DNA of 64,000 bases from Psychromonas ingrahamii 37 (GTDB lineage: Bacteria > Pseudomonadota > Gammaproteobacteria > Enterobacterales > Psychromonadaceae): the NCBI RefSeq assembly GCF_000015285.1, contig NC_008709.1, positions 4,278,001 through 4,342,000 on the forward strand, written 5' to 3'. Shown here piece after piece: positions 566 through 9,718 of the stretch; the stretch's first letter is position 1; each line of letters opens with the position of its first letter. The notes beneath the pieces are model-generated. The model was not told the origin of the DNA and did no database searches. It was given only the letters and a program-made list of their open reading frames with translations. Both the position numbers and the translations under genes were made by a program.

Positions 566-3166
566 CTATTTTGCTTGAAGAAATAAATCTTTTTTCTGAT
601 TTAATTTTTCACTACTCTGTTTTATCATTTCACTATAAGTGGAATTATTGAATCCCCATAATGTTGAATGCATCTCTTCTTTATGTCCAACTAAATACTC
701 AGGTGTAGTAATGACTTTGCAACCATTATTTTCTATATATCGATCAATAGTATTAGTCTCTGCATCATGATTTGTATCATTCCAGCCAAGTAGTTTATCA
801 AAAAAAGCATTTGAATAAACATTCAAGACGGTACTAGTCATCTTATCAATATAAATAAATTCTTCCTCTTTATATTCTTGAATTTTATCTACTTTAGTAT
901 TCGAATTGAAGTCAGCAATAAGACCTGAAAACAAATCCCATGAATTATTTTCCAATCCATCCAAATAGTTCTTTATATTTTGATAACGAGATTCAAAATC
1001 TGTTTTAAATTCAACATCATCTTCACATATTGTGATTGTTTCAAAATTTTGCTCTTTAGCTTTACGAATAATAAATTTATAACTTAACCCACACCCAATC
1101 CAGCCAAGATCATGACGAAGTCCCGGAACATATTGAATACCGTACTTATTGTCACAATCAAAACCAACTTTACGTCCTGTGGACTCAGGCAAACCTAAAC
1201 AGACAAAATTCGTATCAAAATGAATATTTTTACTCGCCAATTCGTAAAACTCATCAAATGTAATACAATCTTTAGACAACATGAAACGCATAAAATAGAA
1301 TTCGAACATATCACTTATGCTTTGTAGATAGGAGATATTTTCAGTTACTTTATCTTTAATATTCTCTGTATCGCCAATCCAGTAAGAAATACGAGCTATC
1401 ATGGCTTCTATGTCATCAATATCAACAAAATCTACGCATTGCTTGATATCTTGATGTTGTTCAATATCAGAGCTTGTTTCTGAAATAACTAATTTATTTA
1501 AACTTAAAGATTCATAAATTCGTGTTGTTTCAAGTAATGCATTCTCGTAATAGTGAATATTAACAACTACTTTAGCTTTTGCTATTTCAGAATATAATTC
1601 TTCCCCAAAGAGATCTCTAATTACTTTTACATTGAAATTCCTAGACAACTCCTCTATATATTTTTTCCTACGAGCGTTATTTATATCACCATAAAAAATA
1701 ACATCGTATTGATAGTCCTCATCAATACGACTTTTTAAATCTTTATGATATCCAACAGGCATATAAAACATTTGTTGATAGTGAAGCCCGTTTTCCTGCA
1801 AAAAATTAATGTTATTTTCAGCATAATCGAAAATCGCGTAAGAATTCTCTAAAATAGAAAAATACTCAGGAGTAAACCAACGAGAACTTACTGACTGCTC
1901 TAACTGATAACTAATATATAATTCTGGGAGTTCAGTAAACATCTGAGGGCAAATAACAAAATATAACGTATCTTGATAACCAGATTTTGGTTTTTCAAAA
2001 ATAACTTCACTCTCAAATGAAATTTTAGCTAAACTTGATTCAATTCTTTTTGCCAACGATGTGCAATGAGGTGTTGTTAGTATGTATATTTTTTCATAGT
2101 CACGAATATTAATATGCCTAACAGGAGCATGAATAAATAGACTAGAAGCGCTAATCAATCTTTTAGCGGTTTGCTTGATACCAAATTTTTTCACAAATTG
2201 AATTGCTTTAAGTGCAATCTTAGGATTTTGATAAAACAATTGCGATAATCGAATGACACGGTTAACTTTATTTGAATGATAAGCACGTAACAACAAATGC
2301 TTAAAATTTCGAATGGGTGATGTTAATCGATAAGTGATACTTTTTTTTATCGTTAACAATTCAATTTGAGAATCGTGAAGCTTTGAATTTAATTGTTCTA
2401 ATTCAATTTGAGAATCATGAAGTGTTGAATTTAATTGCTCTAATTCGATTACATGTTTACTCTCTAATGAATTAATTTTATTCTCATATTGTACTTTTTC
2501 TTCAGTTTGTTTTTTTAGAATTTCTAATGTTTCTTCCTGACTATTTTTAATCTCTAATATGTTTTTGGCATTATTTTCAGGATTAATTATAAAGGAATAG
2601 TCACTTCTTGGTTCATATTCACCAGATTTAAAGCCCCAAAAATATAAATCTTTGGTTTTGTCATTAGTAGAAAAACAATATTCATTAAATAAAGAATCAA
2701 AATCATCAAAAATAGCTTTGATATCATCTTCCTCTAAATTTTTATAATAATCGCTCCAACCCTCAAAACTTTGTAGTAATGGAGCATCATCTGGTGTGGT
2801 TCTTTTAGTTCCATGTTCAGGTCGCCCTGTCGTTGCACAAGTGAATAAAAATAAGCCACCAGGTTTCAACATTCGATAAATGTTTTTTATGGTTTTCTCA
2901 TAAAACTGATCATGTTCAAAACATTCTGTCGAAACAATTGTGTCAAATGTTGCATCTGGCATACCAAGCTCATGCCCTGGAGTTATAATATCAACATTCC
3001 GACCTTGTGCCACATCAAGACCTAAATAATTACAACCACTAAAAAAAGCATTATTATTGCCATTAATATCGAGACACCCAATATCAAGCACAAATTTATA
3101 CTCAAAAAATGAAGAAAACTTTAATCTAACTGATTGACAAAACTCTTGCTGTTCTATATGAGACAC
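566..3166 (-). CDS. Three-domain polysaccharide enzyme: SAM methyltransferase, coiled coil, CgeB-like glycosyltransferase, GT25-like domain
   Basis: The 866-residue protein starts at GTG 3166, nine bases after wzt. Residues about 20-165 form a class I SAM methyltransferase: LDIGC motif I at 27-31, then YLGLD, FDTIVSTECFEHD and MLKPGGLF. Residues about 205-275 are Glu/Lys/Gln-rich and predicted coiled coil, including two copies of a 14-residue unit. A basic stretch with SxTYRLTSPIRNFK follows, as seen at coiled-coil/glycosyltransferase junctions. Residues about 355-600 resemble CgeB/GT-B glycosyltransferases (DVIFYGD, then TRIYESLSLNKLVISE). Residues about 640-840 resemble LPS glycosyltransferase family 25 (GCGLSYKFIIRKAKE, then ITICEDDVEF). 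Its position after wzm-wzt suggests a cytoplasmic or membrane-edge role in building, capping or measuring the exported chain. Substrates are unknown. The domain calls rest on motifs read by eye. Confidence 0.75.
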   Translation of the reverse strand: MSHIEQQEFCQSVRLKFSSFFEYKFVLDIGCLDINGNNNAFFSGCNYLGLDVAQGRNVDIITPGHELGMPDATFDTIVSTECFEHDQFYEKTIKNIYRMLKPGGLFLFTCATTGRPEHGTKRTTPDDAPLLQSFEGWSDYYKNLEEDDIKAIFDDFDSLFNEYCFSTNDKTKDLYFWGFKSGEYEPRSDYSFIINPENNAKNILEIKNSQEETLEILKKQTEEKVQYENKINSLESKHVIELEQLNSTLHDSQIELEQLNSKLHDSQIELLTIKKSITYRLTSPIRNFKHLLLRAYHSNKVNRVIRLSQLFYQNPKIALKAIQFVKKFGIKQTAKRLISASSLFIHAPVRHINIRDYEKIYILTTPHCTSLAKRIESSLAKISFESEVIFEKPKSGYQDTLYFVICPQMFTELPELYISYQLEQSVSSRWFTPEYFSILENSYAIFDYAENNINFLQENGLHYQQMFYMPVGYHKDLKSRIDEDYQYDVIFYGDINNARRKKYIEELSRNFNVKVIRDLFGEELYSEIAKAKVVVNIHYYENALLETTRIYESLSLNKLVISETSSDIEQHQDIKQCVDFVDIDDIEAMIARISYWIGDTENIKDKVTENISYLQSISDMFEFYFMRFMLSKDCITFDEFYELASKNIHFDTNFVCLGLPESTGRKVGFDCDNKYGIQYVPGLRHDLGWIGCGLSYKFIIRKAKEQNFETITICEDDVEFKTDFESRYQNIKNYLDGLENNSWDLFSGLIADFNSNTKVDKIQEYKEEEFIYIDKMTSTVLNVYSNAFFDKLLGWNDTNHDAETNTIDRYIENNGCKVITTPEYLVGHKEEMHSTLWGFNNSTYSEMIKQSSEKLNQKKDLFLQAK
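2358..2441. repeat. 42-bp tandem duplication inside the coiled-coil coding region
   Basis: Units 2358-2399 and 2400-2441 are near-identical direct repeats that stay in frame. They encode QLNSTLHDSQIELE and QLNSKLHDSQIELL, 14 residues each, which is exactly two coiled-coil heptads. Confidence 0.85.
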
Positions 3167-3175
3167 AATACCCGC

Positions 3176-4498
3176 CTATTTTACTGTAAATTTGATGTCT
3201 TTCATCGGAATACCTACTAAACCAGTGCTAGCAGACGTGGACATGGATCTGAATACCAACGCATCATTTATCCATTGATGCTGAACATGACTTTCTTGGT
3301 CACCATCCGCGATGGCAACAGATAATGAATAATCACCATTCATCAAGATTGGCATTAGAAAACTAAATTCAACATTTAATACATTATTCGCATCGCACAA
3401 AAAATTATGATTTAATGTAGATATATATGTGTTATCACCAAATATAGGCTGACCAAGCTTATCTTTAACTGTAAAACCAATTATGGGATTTTTTAGCTCA
3501 GATAAAACATCCACAACTAATTTCAATCGTACATCTTCCCCTCCAACAAACCAACTTAACGGATTATTATCCGTATCGGTTATATATACATCTGTAAAAT
3601 TAGCTCCATCATGGCCAAAAGATTTCACATTTAATTCATCAAATTGTATTACTTTTATATCATTTCTAATATTTGTTGAATTAATAAAGTCAAGACGGAA
3701 ATCTTTAAATGCTTTATTTTGTTTCAGTACTTTTTTAGGTTCTTTATCTTTAGACGATATTTTTGATTGATATAGAAAAGCCATATATTGCTCTGAGACA
3801 TCTTTTGCAGAACCAAAGCTTTCCAACTGACCATTTTTCAACCAAACAGCTTTATCGCATAAATTTGTAACTGCCGAGGTATCATGACTAACGAATAATA
3901 GTACTCCAGTTTTTTTAAACTCTCGTAAAAACCGCATACATTTTTGAGTAAATAAAGCATCACCAACAGCTAAAGCTTCATCAATAATAAGCATATCTGC
4001 ATTGACATGGGCGATAACAGCAAAGGCTAAACGAACATACATACCACTTGAGTATGTTTTTACTACTTGATTTATAAATTCACCTATATCTGCAAATTGA
4101 ATAATATTTTCATATTGTTCATCAATTTCATCATTTGACATCCCATATAAAGATGCACATAGATATACATTATCCTTACCAGTAAATTCAGGATTAAATC
4201 CTGCCCCAAGCTCAAGTAAAGCGGCAACCCTTCCGTTGACTTTTATTTCACCAGTAGTGGGTGTCAACGTATCACAAATTATTTGTAATAAAGTAGATTT
4301 ACCAGCACCATTGCGGCCAATAATACCTAAAGACTCTCCACGAGAAACGCTAAATGATATATTTTTTAATGCCCAGAATTCTTTATAGAGTTTTTTACGC
4401 CTTAAGAACATTTGTAATAACCGATGAGAAGGTTTCTTGTACATCTCAAAACATTTACTCACATTATCCACTGATAATATTGTTTCATTACAATACAT
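3176..4498 (-). CDS. wzt: Polysaccharide ABC exporter ATP-binding subunit with C-terminal glycan-binding domain
   Basis: The 440-residue protein is the nucleotide-binding subunit of a Wzm/Wzt exporter that moves lipid-linked O-antigen across the inner membrane. Walker A is GIIGRNGAGKST, the signature is YSSGMYVRLAFA, Walker B is MLIIDEALAVGD, and the switch His is in FVSHD. After residue about 275 comes a beta-rich extension matching the Wzt C-terminal domain. In E. coli O8/O9a that domain binds the modified non-reducing end of the finished chain. The ATG at 4498 overlaps the end of wzm by 11 bases, which indicates translational coupling. The extension implies that the glycan carries a terminal modification, for which the downstream methyltransferase-bearing protein is the obvious candidate (inference). 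Confidence 0.92.
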   Translation of the reverse strand: MYCNETILSVDNVSKCFEMYKKPSHRLLQMFLRRKKLYKEFWALKNISFSVSRGESLGIIGRNGAGKSTLLQIICDTLTPTTGEIKVNGRVAALLELGAGFNPEFTGKDNVYLCASLYGMSNDEIDEQYENIIQFADIGEFINQVVKTYSSGMYVRLAFAVIAHVNADMLIIDEALAVGDALFTQKCMRFLREFKKTGVLLFVSHDTSAVTNLCDKAVWLKNGQLESFGSAKDVSEQYMAFLYQSKISSKDKEPKKVLKQNKAFKDFRLDFINSTNIRNDIKVIQFDELNVKSFGHDGANFTDVYITDTDNNPLSWFVGGEDVRLKLVVDVLSELKNPIIGFTVKDKLGQPIFGDNTYISTLNHNFLCDANNVLNVEFSFLMPILMNGDYSLSVAIADGDQESHVQHQWINDALVFRSMSTSASTGLVGIPMKDIKFTVK

Positions 4499-5303
4499 CG
4501 CTAAAACCTTTTCTCAATTTTTGAAACCACAAAAAACCCAATAAATAAATAAATGCTGAAGAAAAAAAATAGATTGCGTAACCATTTAAAGTTATAGAGT
4601 TATTATAAATGGCAATATCTCTAAACATTTCAATGACATTTGTTATTGGATTTAAGTACATATAAACTTGATATTTTTCTGGTAATGCCGATATAGGATA
4701 AAAAATTGGAGTCAGAAACATCATTGCAGTAACAAGCAATGCCACGAGTTGGTTTGTATCTTTTAAATAAACCCCCGTAGCAGATATAATATATGACAAA
4801 CCACAACATAAAAAACAGAATGGTATAACGATGGCAGGCGTAAAAATCACAGATAATGCAGGTAAACCAATCAACAATGTATAAAATATAAACCAGATTA
4901 TAAATGATAATATAAAGTTAAATAACGCTGATAACGTTATTACCCATGGTAATATTTCAACAGGAAAAATAACTTTTGTGACGTAATTAGAGTGCGAAAC
5001 CAACAATTCAGGCGATCTCGATAATATATCAGAAAAGAAATTAAACAATATCAACCCAGAAAATAGCAACATTGAGAATTGATATTTATCACCTCCAATA
5101 CCCCACTTAGCCTTAAAGACAACACTAAAAATAAAAGTATAAATCGCAAGCATTACTATTGGTGTTAATATGGACCAAAATACACCCAACAGAGAACCTT
5201 GATATCTTTGCAAGATATCACGCCTAGTTAAAGATATAATCAAACGTTTATTTTTATACAGTATTGATATTGATGATATTAAATTTTTATCAACTTTATA
5301 CAT
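4488..5303 (-). CDS. wzm: Polysaccharide ABC exporter permease
   Basis: This is a 271-residue integral membrane protein of the ABC-2 type with about six hydrophobic segments. It begins with a cytoplasmic stretch (residues about 1-35, ending LTRRDILQRYQGSLLGVFWSI) typical of O-antigen and teichoic acid exporters. The conserved region MMFLTPIFYPISALPEKYQ and the following LNPITNVIEMFRDI match the family. It pairs with the ATPase encoded next to it to form the inner-membrane export channel. The ATG at 5303 overlaps the 3' end of rfbC by 8 bases, so it is translated from the rhamnose operon mRNA. Confidence 0.92.
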   Translation of the reverse strand: MYKVDKNLISSISILYKNKRLIISLTRRDILQRYQGSLLGVFWSILTPIVMLAIYTFIFSVVFKAKWGIGGDKYQFSMLLFSGLILFNFFSDILSRSPELLVSHSNYVTKVIFPVEILPWVITLSALFNFILSFIIWFIFYTLLIGLPALSVIFTPAIVIPFCFLCCGLSYIISATGVYLKDTNQLVALLVTAMMFLTPIFYPISALPEKYQVYMYLNPITNVIEMFRDIAIYNNSITLNGYAIYFFSSAFIYLLGFLWFQKLRKGFSDVL

Positions 5304-5853
5304 ATTGCATCCTGCTAATCATTTTTAATAATTTTGCATTTTTATCTTTTTCAGATAATAAAGGCACTTCCTCTTTAATCGGCCACTCAATACCAATATC
5401 AGGATCATTCCACAGGATTGAAACTTCACTGGTTGGGTTATAATAATCCGTACACTTATACACAAACTCAGCTTCATCACTAGTTACCAAGAAACCATGG
5501 GCAAAACCTTCTGGCACCCATAATTGACGCTTATTTTCTTCAGAAAGAGTGACACCAACCCATTGGCCAAATGTTGCTGAACTCTTACGGATATCCACAG
5601 CCACATCAAAAACTTCACCAGAAATCACACGAACTAGTTTACCTTGCGTGTTTTCAGTTTGGTAATGCAAGCCTCTTAAGATCCCTTTCTTCGATTTAGA
5701 ATGATTGTCCTGCACGAATAAAGTTGGTTTACCTGTGACCTCTTTTTCAAATAATTTTTGATTCCATGTTTCCATAAAGAAACCTCGTTCATCACCAAAC
5801 ACGGCTGGTTCAATGATTTTCACATCAGGAATTTTTGTTTCAATAATTTTCAT
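5296..5853 (-). CDS. rfbC: dTDP-4-dehydrorhamnose 3,5-epimerase
   Basis: The 185-residue cupin enzyme performs the third step of dTDP-L-rhamnose synthesis, epimerising C3 and C5 of dTDP-4-keto-6-deoxyglucose. The active-site segment GILRGLHYQ contains the catalytic His, QDNHSKSKKG precedes it, and VPEGFAHGFLV and YKCTDYYNP are family motifs. Length is normal for RmlC. It sits between rfbD (15 bases upstream) and wzm (overlapping) on the same strand. The complete set of four rhamnose enzymes in this operon indicates that rhamnose or a derivative is part of the surface polysaccharide. Confidence 0.95.
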   Translation of the reverse strand: MKIIETKIPDVKIIEPAVFGDERGFFMETWNQKLFEKEVTGKPTLFVQDNHSKSKKGILRGLHYQTENTQGKLVRVISGEVFDVAVDIRKSSATFGQWVGVTLSEENKRQLWVPEGFAHGFLVTSDEAEFVYKCTDYYNPTSEVSILWNDPDIGIEWPIKEEVPLLSEKDKNAKLLKMISRMQYV

Positions 5854-5868
5854 AATAAACTCAATCTG

Positions 5869-6753
5869 TTATATATTTGTATACGCTTTAATATTCTGTA
5901 GCGCAGCCTTCCAATCACTTGCATTAACCCCAAATTTGTCTTTGATTAATGTTGTAGATAATTTTGAATTAGCTGGCCGCTTAGCGGGAGTTGGGTAATC
6001 TGCCGTTGTAATTGAGTTAACAACAGGTGACTGTTTTAGTACCGTTTGTTGAACAGCCTCATCAAAAATAGCTTGAGCAAACTGGCTCCAGCTGACATGA
6101 GGGAAACCAGAATAATGATAAATACCATATTTATCGTTATCACCATTACTGAGCGTTTTTGCAACAGTAACCAATGCCGATGCGATATCACCTGCATAAG
6201 TTGGACCACCAAATTGATCCCCCACAATGCCTAAGGTATCGTGGGTTTTGGCTAGACGCAGCATGATTTTGACAAAGTTATTACCATGCTCACCAAATAC
6301 CCATGCAGTTCGCAGAATAATATGCCGGGAACACGCCTCAATAACGGCTTTCTCACCGGCTAATTTACTTTCACCGTATATTCCCTGTGGTGAGGTTAGA
6401 TCGGCCTCGGTATACATACCCTCTTTATCGCCGGAAAATACATAATCCGTTGAGATATGTAAAATCACTGCATTTACACTTTGTGCAGCTTCTGCTAAAT
6501 ACTTTGCACCATCACGATTAATAGCGTAAGCAAGATCAGACTCATCTTCGGCTCGGTCAACTGCGGTGTATGCGGCAGCATTAATGATGATGGTTGGTTT
6601 AAACTCATTCACTACTGCTTGGACAGCAGATTGATCAGTGATGTCTAAGCCTTTTGAATCTAACGCTAAAAACTGTGCATCAGTATAATTTCTTAACTGT
6701 TCCGTTAGGCAATGACCAACCTGTCCTTTACTTCCGGTTATTAATACGCGCAT
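5869..6753 (-). CDS. rfbD: dTDP-4-dehydrorhamnose reductase
   Basis: This short-chain dehydrogenase/reductase of 294 residues catalyses the last, NAD(P)H-dependent step to dTDP-L-rhamnose. The nucleotide-binding motif GSKGQVGHCL is at the N-terminus, STDYVFSGD follows near residue 105, and the catalytic pair is in YGESKLAGE (Y-x3-K). I place the start at ATG 6753 (MRVLITG). It lies 4 bases after the rfbA stop, has AAGG 8 nt upstream, and gives the usual N-terminus. An upstream in-frame start at 6783 would add ten residues and overlap rfbA. Confidence 0.94.
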   Translation of the reverse strand: MRVLITGSKGQVGHCLTEQLRNYTDAQFLALDSKGLDITDQSAVQAVVNEFKPTIIINAAAYTAVDRAEDESDLAYAINRDGAKYLAEAAQSVNAVILHISTDYVFSGDKEGMYTEADLTSPQGIYGESKLAGEKAVIEACSRHIILRTAWVFGEHGNNFVKIMLRLAKTHDTLGIVGDQFGGPTYAGDIASALVTVAKTLSNGDNDKYGIYHYSGFPHVSWSQFAQAIFDEAVQQTVLKQSPVVNSITTADYPTPAKRPANSKLSTTLIKDKFGVNASDWKAALQNIKAYTNI

Positions 6754-6757
6754 ATCT

Positions 6758-7639
6758 TTATGCCTTCGCTTTTGATTCTTCAATTAAACGTTTTAGGTAT
6801 TGCCCATATTCGTTTTTCATCATAGGATTAGCAAGTGCAAGAACCTGTTCATCACTTAACCAATTATTACGCCACGATATCTCTTCAAGGCAAGCAACCT
6901 TTAATCCTTGAACATTTTCAATAGTCTGCACAAAAGATGAAGCTTCATGCAAGCTTTCATGAGTACCAGTATCAAGCCAGGCAAAACCGCGTCCTAGCAA
7001 TTCAACATTCAAAGAATTATCATCAAGATACATTTGATTAATGCTAGTAATTTCTAGTTCACCTCGGTGAGAAGGCTTTACTTTTTTAGCAAAATCAACA
7101 ACGCGATTGTCATAAAAATATAACCCAGTGACCGCATAGTTAGATTTTGGCTTAGCTGGCTTTTCTTCAATCGAAAGCGCTCTCATATTCTTATCAAAAT
7201 CAATGACACCAAAACGTTCAGGGTCTTTTACCTGATAACCAAAGACTGTTGCTCCTTTTGTTCGACTAGCTGAATTTTTTAAAGTCTGACTAAAGGATTG
7301 TCCATAGAAAATATTGTCTCCCAAAACCAGGCAACAAGAATCCCCATCAATGAATTTTTCACCGATAATAAACGCTTGAGCTAACCCATCTGGACTTGGC
7401 TGAATCGCATATTCAAAATTAACACCAATATCGTTACCATCACCCAATAATCGTTTAAAACTGTCAATATCTTCTGGAGTAGTAATAATCAAAATATCTT
7501 TGATTCCAGCTAACATTAATGTCGATATTGGATAATAAACCATTGGTTTGTCATATACTGGTAATAGTTGCTTTGAAACACCACGAGTAATCGGGTATAA
7601 ACGCGTTCCCGAGCCACCAGCTAAGATAATGCCTTTCAT
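6758..7639 (-). CDS. rfbA: Glucose-1-phosphate thymidylyltransferase
   Basis: The 293-residue nucleotidyltransferase makes dTDP-glucose from glucose-1-phosphate and dTTP, the first step of rhamnose synthesis. The N-terminal signature [20 protein letters not shown] is intact, followed by [17 protein letters not shown] and the metal-site region [10 protein letters not shown]. Length matches RmlA. Its ATG at 7639 overlaps the rfbB stop by 4 bases and its stop is 4 bases before rfbD, so the four genes are tightly coupled. Confidence 0.96.
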
Positions 7640-8718
7640 TTATTCTCCTCACTTGTACTTGCTGTGCCTAGACGCTCAAAATTATATGAACCATCAAGAA
7701 CACGGCTCCACCATTTTTTATTATTTAGGTACCACTCGACTGTTTTACGAAGCCCAGATTCAAATGTTTCTGCAGGCGCCCAGCCAAGCTCACGTTCAAT
7801 TTTTGACGCGTCAATTGCGTAGCGCACATCATGCCCTGGGCGATCTGTTACATAAGTAATAAGATCTTCGTATTTAGTCACATTTGCAGGCTTATTTGCA
7901 ACTAGTTCTTCAAGCAACGAACAGATGGTTGTTACTACTTCAATATTTGCTTTTTCATTATGCCCGCCAATATTGTAAGTCTCACCAATTTCACCTTTAG
8001 TTACAACGGTATAAAGTGCACTAGCATGATCTTCAACATACAGCCAATCACGAATTTGCATGCCATTGCCATAAACTGGCAGGGGTTTTCCATCTAATGC
8101 GTTTAAAATTATCAGCGGTATCAATTTTTCTGGGAAATGGAAAGGACCATAATTATTTGAACAGTTCGTTATTAACGTTGGCAGCCCGTAAGTACGCTGC
8201 CACGCTCGAACTAAATGGTCACTGGATGCTTTTGAAGCTGAATAAGGGCTTGATGGCTCATAAGATGTCGTTTCAGTAAAAAGATCATCAGTGCCTTCCA
8301 GATCACCATAAACTTCATCCGTTGAAATATGATGAAAACGAAATGCTTCTTTACGAGATGCTTTTAGCTGGTTCCAATATTGACGAGACGCTTCGAGCAG
8401 GGTGTAAGTACCTACTATATTCGTCTCGATAAACGCAGCGGGGCCATCAATTGAGCGATCAACGTGGGATTCAGCAGCTAAATGCATCACAGCATCGGGT
8501 TGATGTTTTTTAAATACACCATCTAACTCGGTACGATTACAAATATCGACTTGTTCAAATGAATAACGTTCACTCGCTTCGATTTCAGATAGGGATTCTA
8601 AGTTTCCTGCATAGGTCAATTTATCAACATTGATAACACTATCTTTTGTGTTGCTAATGATATTGCGGATAACCGCTGAGCCAATAAAACCAGCTCCTCC
8701 TGTCACTAAAATTTTCAT
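7636..8718 (-). CDS. rfbB: dTDP-glucose 4,6-dehydratase
   Basis: The 360-residue extended SDR enzyme converts dTDP-glucose to dTDP-4-keto-6-deoxyglucose using tightly bound NAD. It shows [10 protein letters not shown] at the N-terminus, [13 protein letters not shown] near residue 80, [13 protein letters not shown] with the catalytic Asp-Glu pair, and [13 protein letters not shown] with the Tyr/Lys pair. It is the first gene visible after the ops/JUMPstart leader (8873-8905), about 155 bases downstream of it, so it probably opens the RfaH-dependent operon. Confidence 0.96.
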
Positions 8719-9208
8719 TTTATCTTCTTTTAAATAATGGTGAGTTTAATTCTTATGTACGGCTAACCTCAAAACTGATTTTAGTTATAAATAAACCACA
8801 AATAAGTTAACATTAATGCATCTTCTAAACGCGAATTAAATCCTTAAAGTGACTAAGAACAGTCATTTCAAGCACGCTACCGCCCACAGGTTCAACGCTC
8901 CCAAAGGCAAGTTACTTATTGCGAAAAAACACTCAAATCTATCTATTTTGGGTTAATGCATCTATTTACAAGGCACAAATATAAAGCGAAAAACAGCTTT
9001 ATATTTGAAAATAGTGGTTGACGAGCGCGGCGTATTATAAATGAATGAGTTAAAAATGCGATCTTTTGACATAAAAGAACGGGGACAGTCGTTGAAAGAA
9101 TATTACGGATTAAAAACCTTGTTAATGGTGCTAAGGTAACAGATGGATTACAATAGGTTAAAAAACTCGGGGACTGCCTGCTTAATTTAGCCAAAAAAAG
9201 GAACTGTC
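8719..9208. other. Divergent leader/promoter region between the rfb operon and rfaH
   Basis: This region of 490 bases carries no credible gene. It holds the ops/JUMPstart element for the minus-strand operon at 8873-8905, with a small hairpin (8850-8865, TGACT arms) just downstream of it in the direction of transcription. It must also contain the rfaH promoter. I could not choose a confident -35/-10 pair for either direction. Confidence 0.6.
8873..8905 (-). promoter_or_regulatory. ops element within a JUMPstart-like leader (RfaH recruitment site)
   Basis: On the minus strand, 8884 to 8873 reads GGCGGTAGCGTG, the exact 12-base ops sequence that pauses RNA polymerase and loads RfaH. The bases before it (GGGAGCGTTGAACCTGTG) resemble the rest of the 39-bp JUMPstart sequence found ahead of O-antigen and capsule operons. 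It lies about 155 nt upstream of the rfbB start, so it is in the transcribed leader. RfaH recruited here should suppress Rho-dependent termination through the long glycan operon. Confidence 0.9.
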
Positions 9209-9718
9209 ATGAGCCTACAATGGTTTGTTGTATATTGTAAAAGCCGGGAAGAGTTACGTGCGCAAAGGAATTTAGAAAATCAGGGCGTTTATTCTTTTTT
9301 TCCTAAAATATGCAAAGAAAAAATTTTACGCAGTAAAAAAAAGGTTGTAGAGGAGCCTCTATTTCCCAGTTATCTGTTTGTTAATATTTCTAAAAATGAT
9401 GAAAAATTTAGCGCTATTCGCTCGACCCGTGGTATTAATAATTTTGTAAAATTTGGTCTTAGCATTGCAACCATTCCAGATCAGCAGATCAAAAAAATTG
9501 AGCAGTTATGCCACGTTAATAATAAACTCGCAGTTAATAGTGAAGACGTCTATCAAAATGGAGACAAAATAGAAATTTTAAGCGGCCCCTTTAAAGGCTT
9601 AACGGCTATTTTTAATATCGAAGATGGGTTAGAACGTTCGATGTTATTGCTTAAGATTTTAAATCAGGATAATAATATTTCATTCAAAAATTCAGCTCTA
9701 AAAAAAGTGGAAAGCTAA
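9209..9718 (+). CDS. rfaH: Transcription antitermination factor RfaH
   Basis: The 169-residue NusG paralogue starts MSLQWFVVYCKSREELRAQRN, the NGN domain pattern of RfaH, with PLFPSYLFVNI and RSTRGINNFVKFG later in the domain. The C-terminal KOW part contains GDKIEILSGPFKGL. AAAGGA lies 6 nt before the ATG. RfaH binds RNA polymerase paused at ops sites and enhances distal transcription of LPS and capsule operons. Its location head-to-head with an ops-bearing rhamnose/O-antigen operon supports that role. glpG follows 3 bases after its stop, probably on the same transcript. Confidence 0.94.
   Translation: MSLQWFVVYCKSREELRAQRNLENQGVYSFFPKICKEKILRSKKKVVEEPLFPSYLFVNISKNDEKFSAIRSTRGINNFVKFGLSIATIPDQQIKKIEQLCHVNNKLAVNSEDVYQNGDKIEILSGPFKGLTAIFNIEDGLERSMLLLKILNQDNNISFKNSALKKVES

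Follow-up and report, generated by a model that had tools for sequence, protein, structure and literature searches.

In Psychromonas ingrahamii 37, the gene of an 866-aa fusion protein adjoins wzt and combines, in this order, a methyltransferase (MT), a coiled coil, a GT-B glycosyltransferase and a GT25-type glycosyltransferase, which raises the question whether one polypeptide extends, measures and caps a glycan chain. The original prediction held that capping, measuring and sugar transfer are united in this chain and coupled to the C-terminal domain of Wzt (Wzt-C). In this study, we analyzed the window, i.e., the whole stretch of 64,000 nucleotides containing these genes, and compared it with other genomes and with known systems. 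The prediction is kept as the best reading, with partial support from sequence comparisons and structure models: the fusion probably unites, in one polypeptide, the polymerase and the terminator of an ABC-transporter-dependent surface polysaccharide, presumably O-antigen (a polymerase-terminator).

Organization of the locus

The MT - coiled coil - GT-B - GT25 fusion beside a wzt gene with a Wzt_C domain was confirmed. On the minus strand, the fusion gene (566..3166) lies next to wzt (3176..4498), which encodes the ABC transporter ATPase with a C-terminal glycan-binding domain; this extension, already seen in the original prediction, was assigned as Wzt_C (residues 292-429, 3212..3625; PF14524, 128 bits). 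The same strand carries wzm for the ABC-2 permease (4488..5303; PF01061, 87.7 bits) and rmlC, rmlD, rmlA and rmlB for dTDP-L-rhamnose synthesis (5296..8718; NCBIfam TIGR01221, TIGR01214, TIGR01207 and TIGR01181, all above cut-off). In the operon leader, GGCGGTAGCGT (8874..8884, minus strand) is the sole match in 64 kb to what we take to be the ops consensus, with 0.21 matches expected from shuffles. The rfaH gene (9209..9718, plus strand; TIGR01955, 160.4 bits at a cut-off of 144.5) is divergent from the operon, and the locus also has its own phosphoglycosyltransferase fusion.

Elsewhere on the chromosome, three Wzy_C matches above cut-off, one of which may be a ligase, and two Wzz matches were detected. 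These would suit a reading in which the main O-antigen is made by Wzy-type genes elsewhere and the fusion makes and caps a short or non-O-antigen glycan. Against it stand wzm, wzt, the phosphoglycosyltransferase fusion and the ops/RfaH signs of the locus, and we consider it unlikely; it would be compatible with the polymerase-terminator mechanism. A separate WbdD-like capping gene outside the window, the alternative named in the original prediction, was not clearly found in the genome: the best match of E. coli O8 WbdD was a 243-aa frame with an E value of 3e-4, and the MT profile had one match, the window's own.

Domains of the fusion protein

The N-terminal class I SAM methyltransferase domain (residues 1-185, 2612..3166) was assigned by HMM and predicted fold. 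In the AF2 model, about 12 residues separate it from a single long helix (residues 197-281, 2324..2578), the putative coiled-coil ruler; a heptad pattern lies at residues 235-283 according to the home-made heptad scorer on which our coiled-coil calls rest. The motif SITYRLTSPIR and a basic stretch (residues 276-345, 2132..2341) form a putative membrane-proximal element. They are followed by a GT-B (GT4/CgeB-like) module (residues 355-635, 1262..2104) and a GT-A module of GT25 type with an EDD motif (residues 652-839, 650..1213), all encoded on the minus strand. The GT25 module scored above the cut-off of profile PF01755 and matched a GT-A fold, and the predicted structure of the GT-B module matched a GT-B/GT4 fold. 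PF13524 (Glyco_trans_1_2), which we take from the original prediction to be 'CgeB-like', gave 19.4 bits on this module, below its cut-off of 25; among relatives, L004 (26.7) and L049 (32.4) passed, L005 (17.5) failed and L006 was not listed. Hence, the proposed domain order is borne out by HMM and fold, the GT-B module by fold only. The fold assignments rest on the matches listed, with the GT-B rows in one listing and the MT and GT25 rows in another.

Textbook MT motif I is a glycine-rich loop, from which the motif of the fusion, DIGCLDINGNN, departs. This and the GT-B score under cut-off could mean that at least one module is an inactive relic and that the fusion is a glycosyltransferase scaffold. 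We regard this as very unlikely, since the motif is common to its MT family (consensus LDIGSLDINGNN in alignment A4), and the window protein and its three first relatives do not vary in the EDD motif or in many residues of the GT-B module.

Comparison with known systems

The original prediction knew of no described system with such a layout. This is contradicted by Klebsiella pneumoniae O7 ORF6 (PMC11231755) and WsaE of Geobacillus stearothermophilus (PMC2943079), as far as these sources were covered. According to the passages on O7 ORF6, it is an MT-kinase-CBM-coiled coil-GT2-GT2 protein of a wzm-wzt cluster whose N-terminal part terminates the chain (PMC11231755). The fusion shares with it the N-terminal MT, the central coiled coil, two C-terminal glycosyltransferases and a cluster with wzm-wzt and rml genes. 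Unlike ORF6, it has only the roughly 12 residues between MT and coiled coil where ORF6 carries kinase and CBM, and by Pfam and fold its modules are GT-B and GT25 instead of two GT2. WsaE is described in the passages covered (PMC2943079, PMC3898925) as an MT with two rhamnosyltransferase domains from a wzm-wzt cluster, no coiled coil being mentioned there, and homologues were noted in the LPS cluster of Xanthomonas oryzae. Thus, the MT, the two glycosyltransferase domains in one chain and the wzm-wzt cluster are common to both, and the WsaE system has a terminal O-methyl cap; by description, WsaE differs in making an S-layer glycan and in its rhamnosyltransferase domains.

No kinase family was found in the fusion protein by Pfam search. 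This had been put forward as novel, but E. coli O8 WbdD, which methylates a hydroxyl, is already described as kinase-less in the part of PMC3482155 covered. Like WbdD of E. coli O8 and O9/O9a, the fusion has an MT, a predicted coiled coil extending beyond it, a gene adjoining wzt and a partner Wzt with the Wzt_C domain. Unlike WbdD, which has no glycosyltransferase modules and recruits its polymerase as a separate protein, the fusion has the putative polymerase part joined on; a basic amphipathic segment (residues 276-297) and a motif resembling the SRSWRxT of WbdD are present. By phmmer, no similarity between the two MT domains was detectable. WbbB of K. pneumoniae O12 also unites polymerization, ruler and termination in one polypeptide, which is putative for the fusion, but ends the chain with Kdo via a glycosyltransferase module and not by methylation, according to the passages covered (PMC11231755). 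The passages of PMC4483657 covered deal with wzt and WbbB and mention neither a methyltransferase nor a coiled coil. Judged by titles and abstract starts in the open-licence PMC literature, nothing was recognised on MT-coiled coil-GT-B-GT25 proteins or tandem repeats in such rulers. The polymerase-terminator design is therefore known from few systems, and the combination of parts in the fusion looks new; as far as searched, so is the GT-B+GT25 pair in this role, by which the design would be extended to a kinase-less pair of this kind.

Wzt-C type and possible recognition of methylated ends

The solved structure nearest to the window Wzt-C is that of Aquifex aeolicus (8dku, 8dky; 36 bits), followed by O9a (16 bits); the Kdo-type Wzt-C of R. 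terrigena was not among the solved-structure matches at E 1. According to the part of PMC9445017 covered, Aquifex Wzt-C binds 3-O-methyl-mannose, with Trp362 stacking on the methyl group. At 27% identity, the window Wzt-C keeps Asn313, Ala348 and Trp362 and has Ser for Thr346, whereas His350, Ile299, Leu300 and the trap-loop residues are not kept. A Trp is aligned at position 362 in the window, L005, L006, L049 and O8, and not in O9, L004 and L050. Trp362 on its own was dropped as an indicator of a methyl cap, because the pocket differs at other residues and a Trp occupies a neighboring position in L050.

Co-occurrence of MT-first genes with this Wzt-C type

Wzt-C domains of the window type (at least 100 bits) were present in 12 of 349 other genomes, the window's own excluded. 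Directly after wzt, a gene starting with an MT domain (MT-first gene) was found in 10 of the 11 loci of the same class that were readable and had a similar Wzt-C, not counting the window, in line with the predicted co-occurrence; six of these ten genes carry glycosyltransferase domains behind the MT, and the modules varied. As far as searched, this arrangement is new. In L178 (Wzt-C above 100 bits), no same-strand MT adjoins wzt, and the opposite strand has an MT-like frame. For ten lower-scoring Wzt-C loci, a same-strand MT stood at +1 in four of nine scanned. The linkage control consisted of 55 other same-strand frames from the 10 loci (none from L170), omitting wzm, wzt, the +1 gene and any frame that exceeded 1300 aa or was truncated at an end. 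Among the first 25 of 87 Pfam families matched by these frames, each with at least 2 of the 55 as members, there was no Methyltransf family; one 249-aa frame in L175 weakly matched an MT query by phmmer. The order wzm-wzt-MT-first corresponds to the E. coli O8 and O9 loci (L137, L136), whose genes are annotated 'class I SAM-dependent methyltransferase' and were taken as WbdD by place, in O9 also by length (708 aa).

The MT class requires five changes on the Wzt-C tree, against a mean of 7.8 in shuffles (2 of 200 with as few), and six on the tree of the ATPase part, against 7.9 (12 of 200). The trees have 13 rows, among which L173 and L174 are near-copies, and their inner branches are mostly weak. 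For these sequences, it is only suggestive that MT class tracks the Wzt-C tree. L167, whose Wzt-C is nearest to that of the window (52%), is paired with an MT from a different family. At the GT-B+GT25 locus L050, Wzt-C belongs to the R. terrigena (Kdo) type (70 bits). As weak negatives, no MT was found in L050 (eight genes by Pfam, the rest by phmmer with six MT queries), in L023, whose Wzt has no C domain (four genes by Pfam, plus phmmer), and in L051 (phmmer). In this small sample, an MT-first gene right after wzt accompanies one Wzt-C type, which together with the kept methyl-stacking Trp fits recognition of a methylated chain end. If true, the Wzt-C sequence could predict cap chemistry.

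Spread of the fusion and its modules

The fusion as a genus trait was rejected, because only its own genome among 60 matched the whole fusion (E up to 1e-5). The profile of the GT-B+GT25 pair matched 3 of 369 genomes of the class, two at full length (own and G401), and 13 of 398 of the phylum, the own at full length and the other 12 over half or less. In the order of G796 (Ottowia), 7 of 399 genomes matched, nearly in full in G796, G1016, G996 and G1149 and in part in three, and in the order of G401 one of three, G401 itself. In two relatives, the pair follows an MT that belongs to a different family, which is likewise new as far as searched. Viral contigs gave 45 pattern matches and no relative of the pair.

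The MT profile found 427 stretches in viral contigs, 357 of them relatives (80 kept, of which 22 rows entered the AF2 alignment), so the MT family is not specific to capping. Such a widespread family, the two Wzz genes of the genome and a coiled coil with SWR-type motif in the MT-less glycosyltransferase L004 (1119 aa) would agree with an MT decorating internal or repeat-unit sugars, a coiled coil that only oligomerises the protein and tethers it at the membrane, and chain length set otherwise. We hold this to be rather improbable, because 10 of the 11 readable loci with this Wzt-C type have an MT-first gene following wzt and the window Wzt-C keeps the methyl-stacking Trp.

Proposed mechanism and the tandem array in the putative ruler

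For a polymerase-terminator, we propose that a lipid-linked chain, with rhamnose as a likely component, is elongated by the two C-terminal modules, GT-B and GT25, which would be kept at the membrane by the basic amphipathic stretch that follows the coiled coil. With about 85 residues, or 12-13 nm at a rise of 1.5 A per residue in a fully helical state, the coiled coil would hold the MT at a distance, so that only sufficiently long chains reach it. Growth would be halted by O-methylation at the non-reducing end, Wzt-C would bind the capped end, and Wzm/Wzt would export the chain.

The basic stretch (276-345) contains 14 K/R and no D/E. Its segment 276-297 has a hydrophobic moment of 0.50 (29 of 1000 shuffles as high), and the two segments that come next did not stand out from shuffles (as high in 148 and 841 of 1000). 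The SITYRLTSPIR motif resembles SRSWRITQPLR of O8 WbdD, and the proline-free stretch ahead of it comprises 79 residues in the fusion and 88 in O8 WbdD, by a crude measure that yields only 35 for O9 WbdD. Compared with the coiled-coil region of O8 WbdD, that of the fusion scored 67, above all of 300 shuffles (mean 33.5); this partly reflects mere coiled-coil make-up, because shuffling also destroys the heptad pattern. It was weakly like the region of L005 (14 of 300 shuffles as high) and no better than shuffles against L006 (183 of 300). Since they also occur in MT-less L004, coiled coil and SWR motif are no proof of a ruler.

Within the helix, a 42-bp tandem array of 14 codons or two heptads (2358..2450, minus strand) was detected by TRF with 2.2 copies, 90% matches and a score of 151; in the register used, there are 7 mismatches over 42 bases between two units. 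As far as searched, such an array inside a putative ruler is new, and arrays occur in two other genes, too. TRF scores above 100, a cut-off chosen after the data were seen, were obtained for 3 of 18 terminator genes, including the window (2 of 17 excluding it) and the O8 and O9 WbdD rows without such arrays, and for 1 of 78 other same-strand frames (one-sided Fisher p 0.02). It is conceivable, if doubtful, that these genes form a family of 'plug-in' methyl-capped polymerases, with varied MTs, glycosyltransferase modules and coiled-coil lengths reshuffled about a single Wzt-C type and with rulers that grow by in-gene tandem duplication, so that chain length would change by repeat expansion and contraction like a variable-number repeat. 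If true, natural coiled-coil lengths and repeat arrays would allow the ruler model to be tested on existing variation and would supply parts for polysaccharides of set length. The array units comprise 14 codons in the window fusion, 7 in L171 and 39 in L172.

Comparison with known systems

The fusion (866 residues; window 566-3166, minus strand), in which a class I SAM methyltransferase (MT) domain is followed by a coiled coil and by GT-B and GT25 glycosyltransferase (GT) modules, had been put forward as a possible new architecture. It does not form a new category: the kind present here is the known polymerase-terminator of ABC-dependent glycans, of which the fusion is a real variant that probably works. 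MT and GT modules are already joined in one chain in Klebsiella pneumoniae O7 ORF6 (PMC11231755) and WsaE (PMC2943079), K. pneumoniae O12 WbbB already combines polymerisation, measuring and termination (PMC11231755), and Escherichia coli O8 WbdD also lacks a kinase (PMC3482155). As stated in PMC11231755, C-terminal GT modules are present in a part of the ORF6 orthologues, and other orthologues stop after the coiled coil. In the open-licence literature searched, we found neither a GT-B+GT25 pair as part of a polymerase-terminator, nor an MT swap on one GT pair, nor repeat arrays in a ruler, i.e. a coiled coil setting chain length.

Operon and genome setting

The fusion adjoins a wzt gene with a Wzt_C domain, and wzm and rmlC, D, A and B are located upstream in the operon. 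Its leader contains an ops-type site (GGCGGTAGCGT, window 8874-8884, minus strand), beside which rfaH (window 9209-9718, plus strand) is oriented divergently. Thus, the RfaH antiterminator gene adjoins an operon which is probably under its control. Three genes follow 3′ of the fusion, mostly beyond the window: one encodes a GT2-like protein of 256 aa, for which Pfam gave matches under the cut-off and NCBIfam gave none, one an epimerase-phosphoglycosyltransferase fusion of 508 aa, and one a UDP-GlcNAc dehydratase-like protein of 635 aa. The gene set resembles a complete ABC-transporter O-polysaccharide locus in which GT capacity besides the fusion is small, and therefore the fusion's two GTs are the natural polymerase candidates. 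The genome has one Wzt_C gene; Wzy_C and Wzz genes are present elsewhere in it.

Co-occurrence of Wzt-C and MT-first genes

The joint Wzt-C profile of the window, L006 and L049 was searched in 350 genomes of the class, by gene content probably Gammaproteobacteria, and gave matches in 23, 13 of them with at least 100 bits, including the window's own. Since one of the 12 other loci ends at a contig edge (L169) and another has no same-strand next gene with an MT (L178), the gene after wzt starts with an MT domain in 10 of 11 readable loci (L167, L168, L170-L177), which are not all independent because L173 and L174 share one genus. No Methyltransf family was among the 25 most frequent families in the control of 55 other same-strand frames. 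The MT-first genes are divided equally between Methyltransf_24 and Methyltransf_11/23-type domains (five each). Six carry GT domains behind the MT, namely RgpF-WbsX (L167), two GT2 (L168, L177), GT4-like (L172) or GT2 and GT4-like modules (L173, L174), while three stop after the coiled coil or motif (L171, L175, L176) and that of L170 is truncated at the edge of its contig. A predicted heptad segment of at least 40, called by a home-made scorer, follows the MT in nine of the ten (exception L176), and the motif pattern is present in seven. For the ten weaker Wzt-C matches, a same-strand MT gene was detected at +1 in four of nine scanned loci (L182-L185). An MT-like gene was found at +2 by phmmer in L186 and L187, the MT is on the opposite strand in L179, no MT was found at +1 in L180 and L181, and L188, whose +1 gene was left out of the scan, has an MT-like frame upstream. 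The families WsaF_N and WsaF_C matched 2 of the 55 control frames of L167-L177; these are relatives of WsaE's partner beside MT-first terminators.

Wzt-C type and cap pocket

The Wzt-C domains of the window, L006 (Ottowia MAG) and L049 (from G1016) are mutually 45-49% identical, and their joint profile matches Wzt-C of Aquifex (49 bits) and O9a (23 bits), with no match to that of R. terrigena at E 1. The L050 domain (from G996) is of the R. terrigena (Kdo-cap) type (70 bits), and that of L004 (Nitrosospira) matches Aquifex weakly (20 bits). According to PMC9445017, the Aquifex cap is 3-O-methyl and Trp362 of Wzt-C covers the methyl. This residue is aligned in the window, L005 (Cardiobacteriaceae MAG), L006, L049 and O8, and not in O9 (methyl-phosphate), L004 or L050. 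Other residues of the pocket differ.

Putative ruler region

Proline-free stretches of 79 and 88 residues precede the SWR-type motif in the window (SITYRLTSPIR) and in the kinase-less O8 WbdD (SRSWRITQPLR), respectively; they comprise 108 residues in L005 and 245 in L006. The similarity of the window's ruler region exceeded 300 of 300 shuffles for O8, 299 of 300 for O9 and 286 of 300 for L005, and did not exceed shuffles for L006 (183 of 300 as high). Residues 276-345 of the fusion contain 14 K/R and no D/E, and the hydrophobic moment is raised in 276-297 only, of three segments tested. Tandem arrays were located in the coiled-coil region in all three cases: a 42-bp array within the window's predicted helix, 21 bp × 4.6 copies in L171, and 117 bp × 4.2 copies (96% match) in the MT-GT terminator of L172 (L172:5652-6138), which is a recent expansion inside the putative ruler. 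The heptad frame is kept by the 42- and 21-bp units and not by 117 bp (39 codons). The fusion is good material for tests of the ruler model.

Relatives of the GT-B+GT25 module

A full or nearly full GT-B+GT25 module was found in eight loci, namely the window, L004, L005, L006, L023 (from G401), L049, L050 and L051 (from G1149), and is fused behind MT and coiled coil in three of them (window, L005, L006). Gene order in L006 is wzm-wzt(Wzt_C)-fusion. In L005, the wzm tail is directly followed by a Wzt_C tail (L005:1-690), which scores 31.3 bits against a cut-off of 30.4, and then by the fusion; the ATPase part of wzt is missing at the contig edge, either by deletion or by an assembly fault. The MT is encoded by a separate gene in L004. 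It was absent among the genes examined in L023 and L050, and phmmer, the sole method used there, gave none in L051. In L050 (L050:3366-10741), wzt is followed by a gene resembling CDP-glycerol transferases, whose match falls just short of the cut-off, and by a WbsX gene. A gene for an MT_23 - GT2 - coiled tail protein (L049:10810-12546) precedes the separate GT-B+GT25 gene in L049, showing the same kinds of modules in another order. The window's MT belongs to Methyltransf_11/23, whereas those of L005 and L006 belong to Methyltransf_24; therefore, one GT pair stands behind MTs of two families. The window's MT family is also frequent in viral contigs (IMG/VR), where 357 stretches, 80 of which were kept (L055-L134), encode relatives with up to 57% identity.
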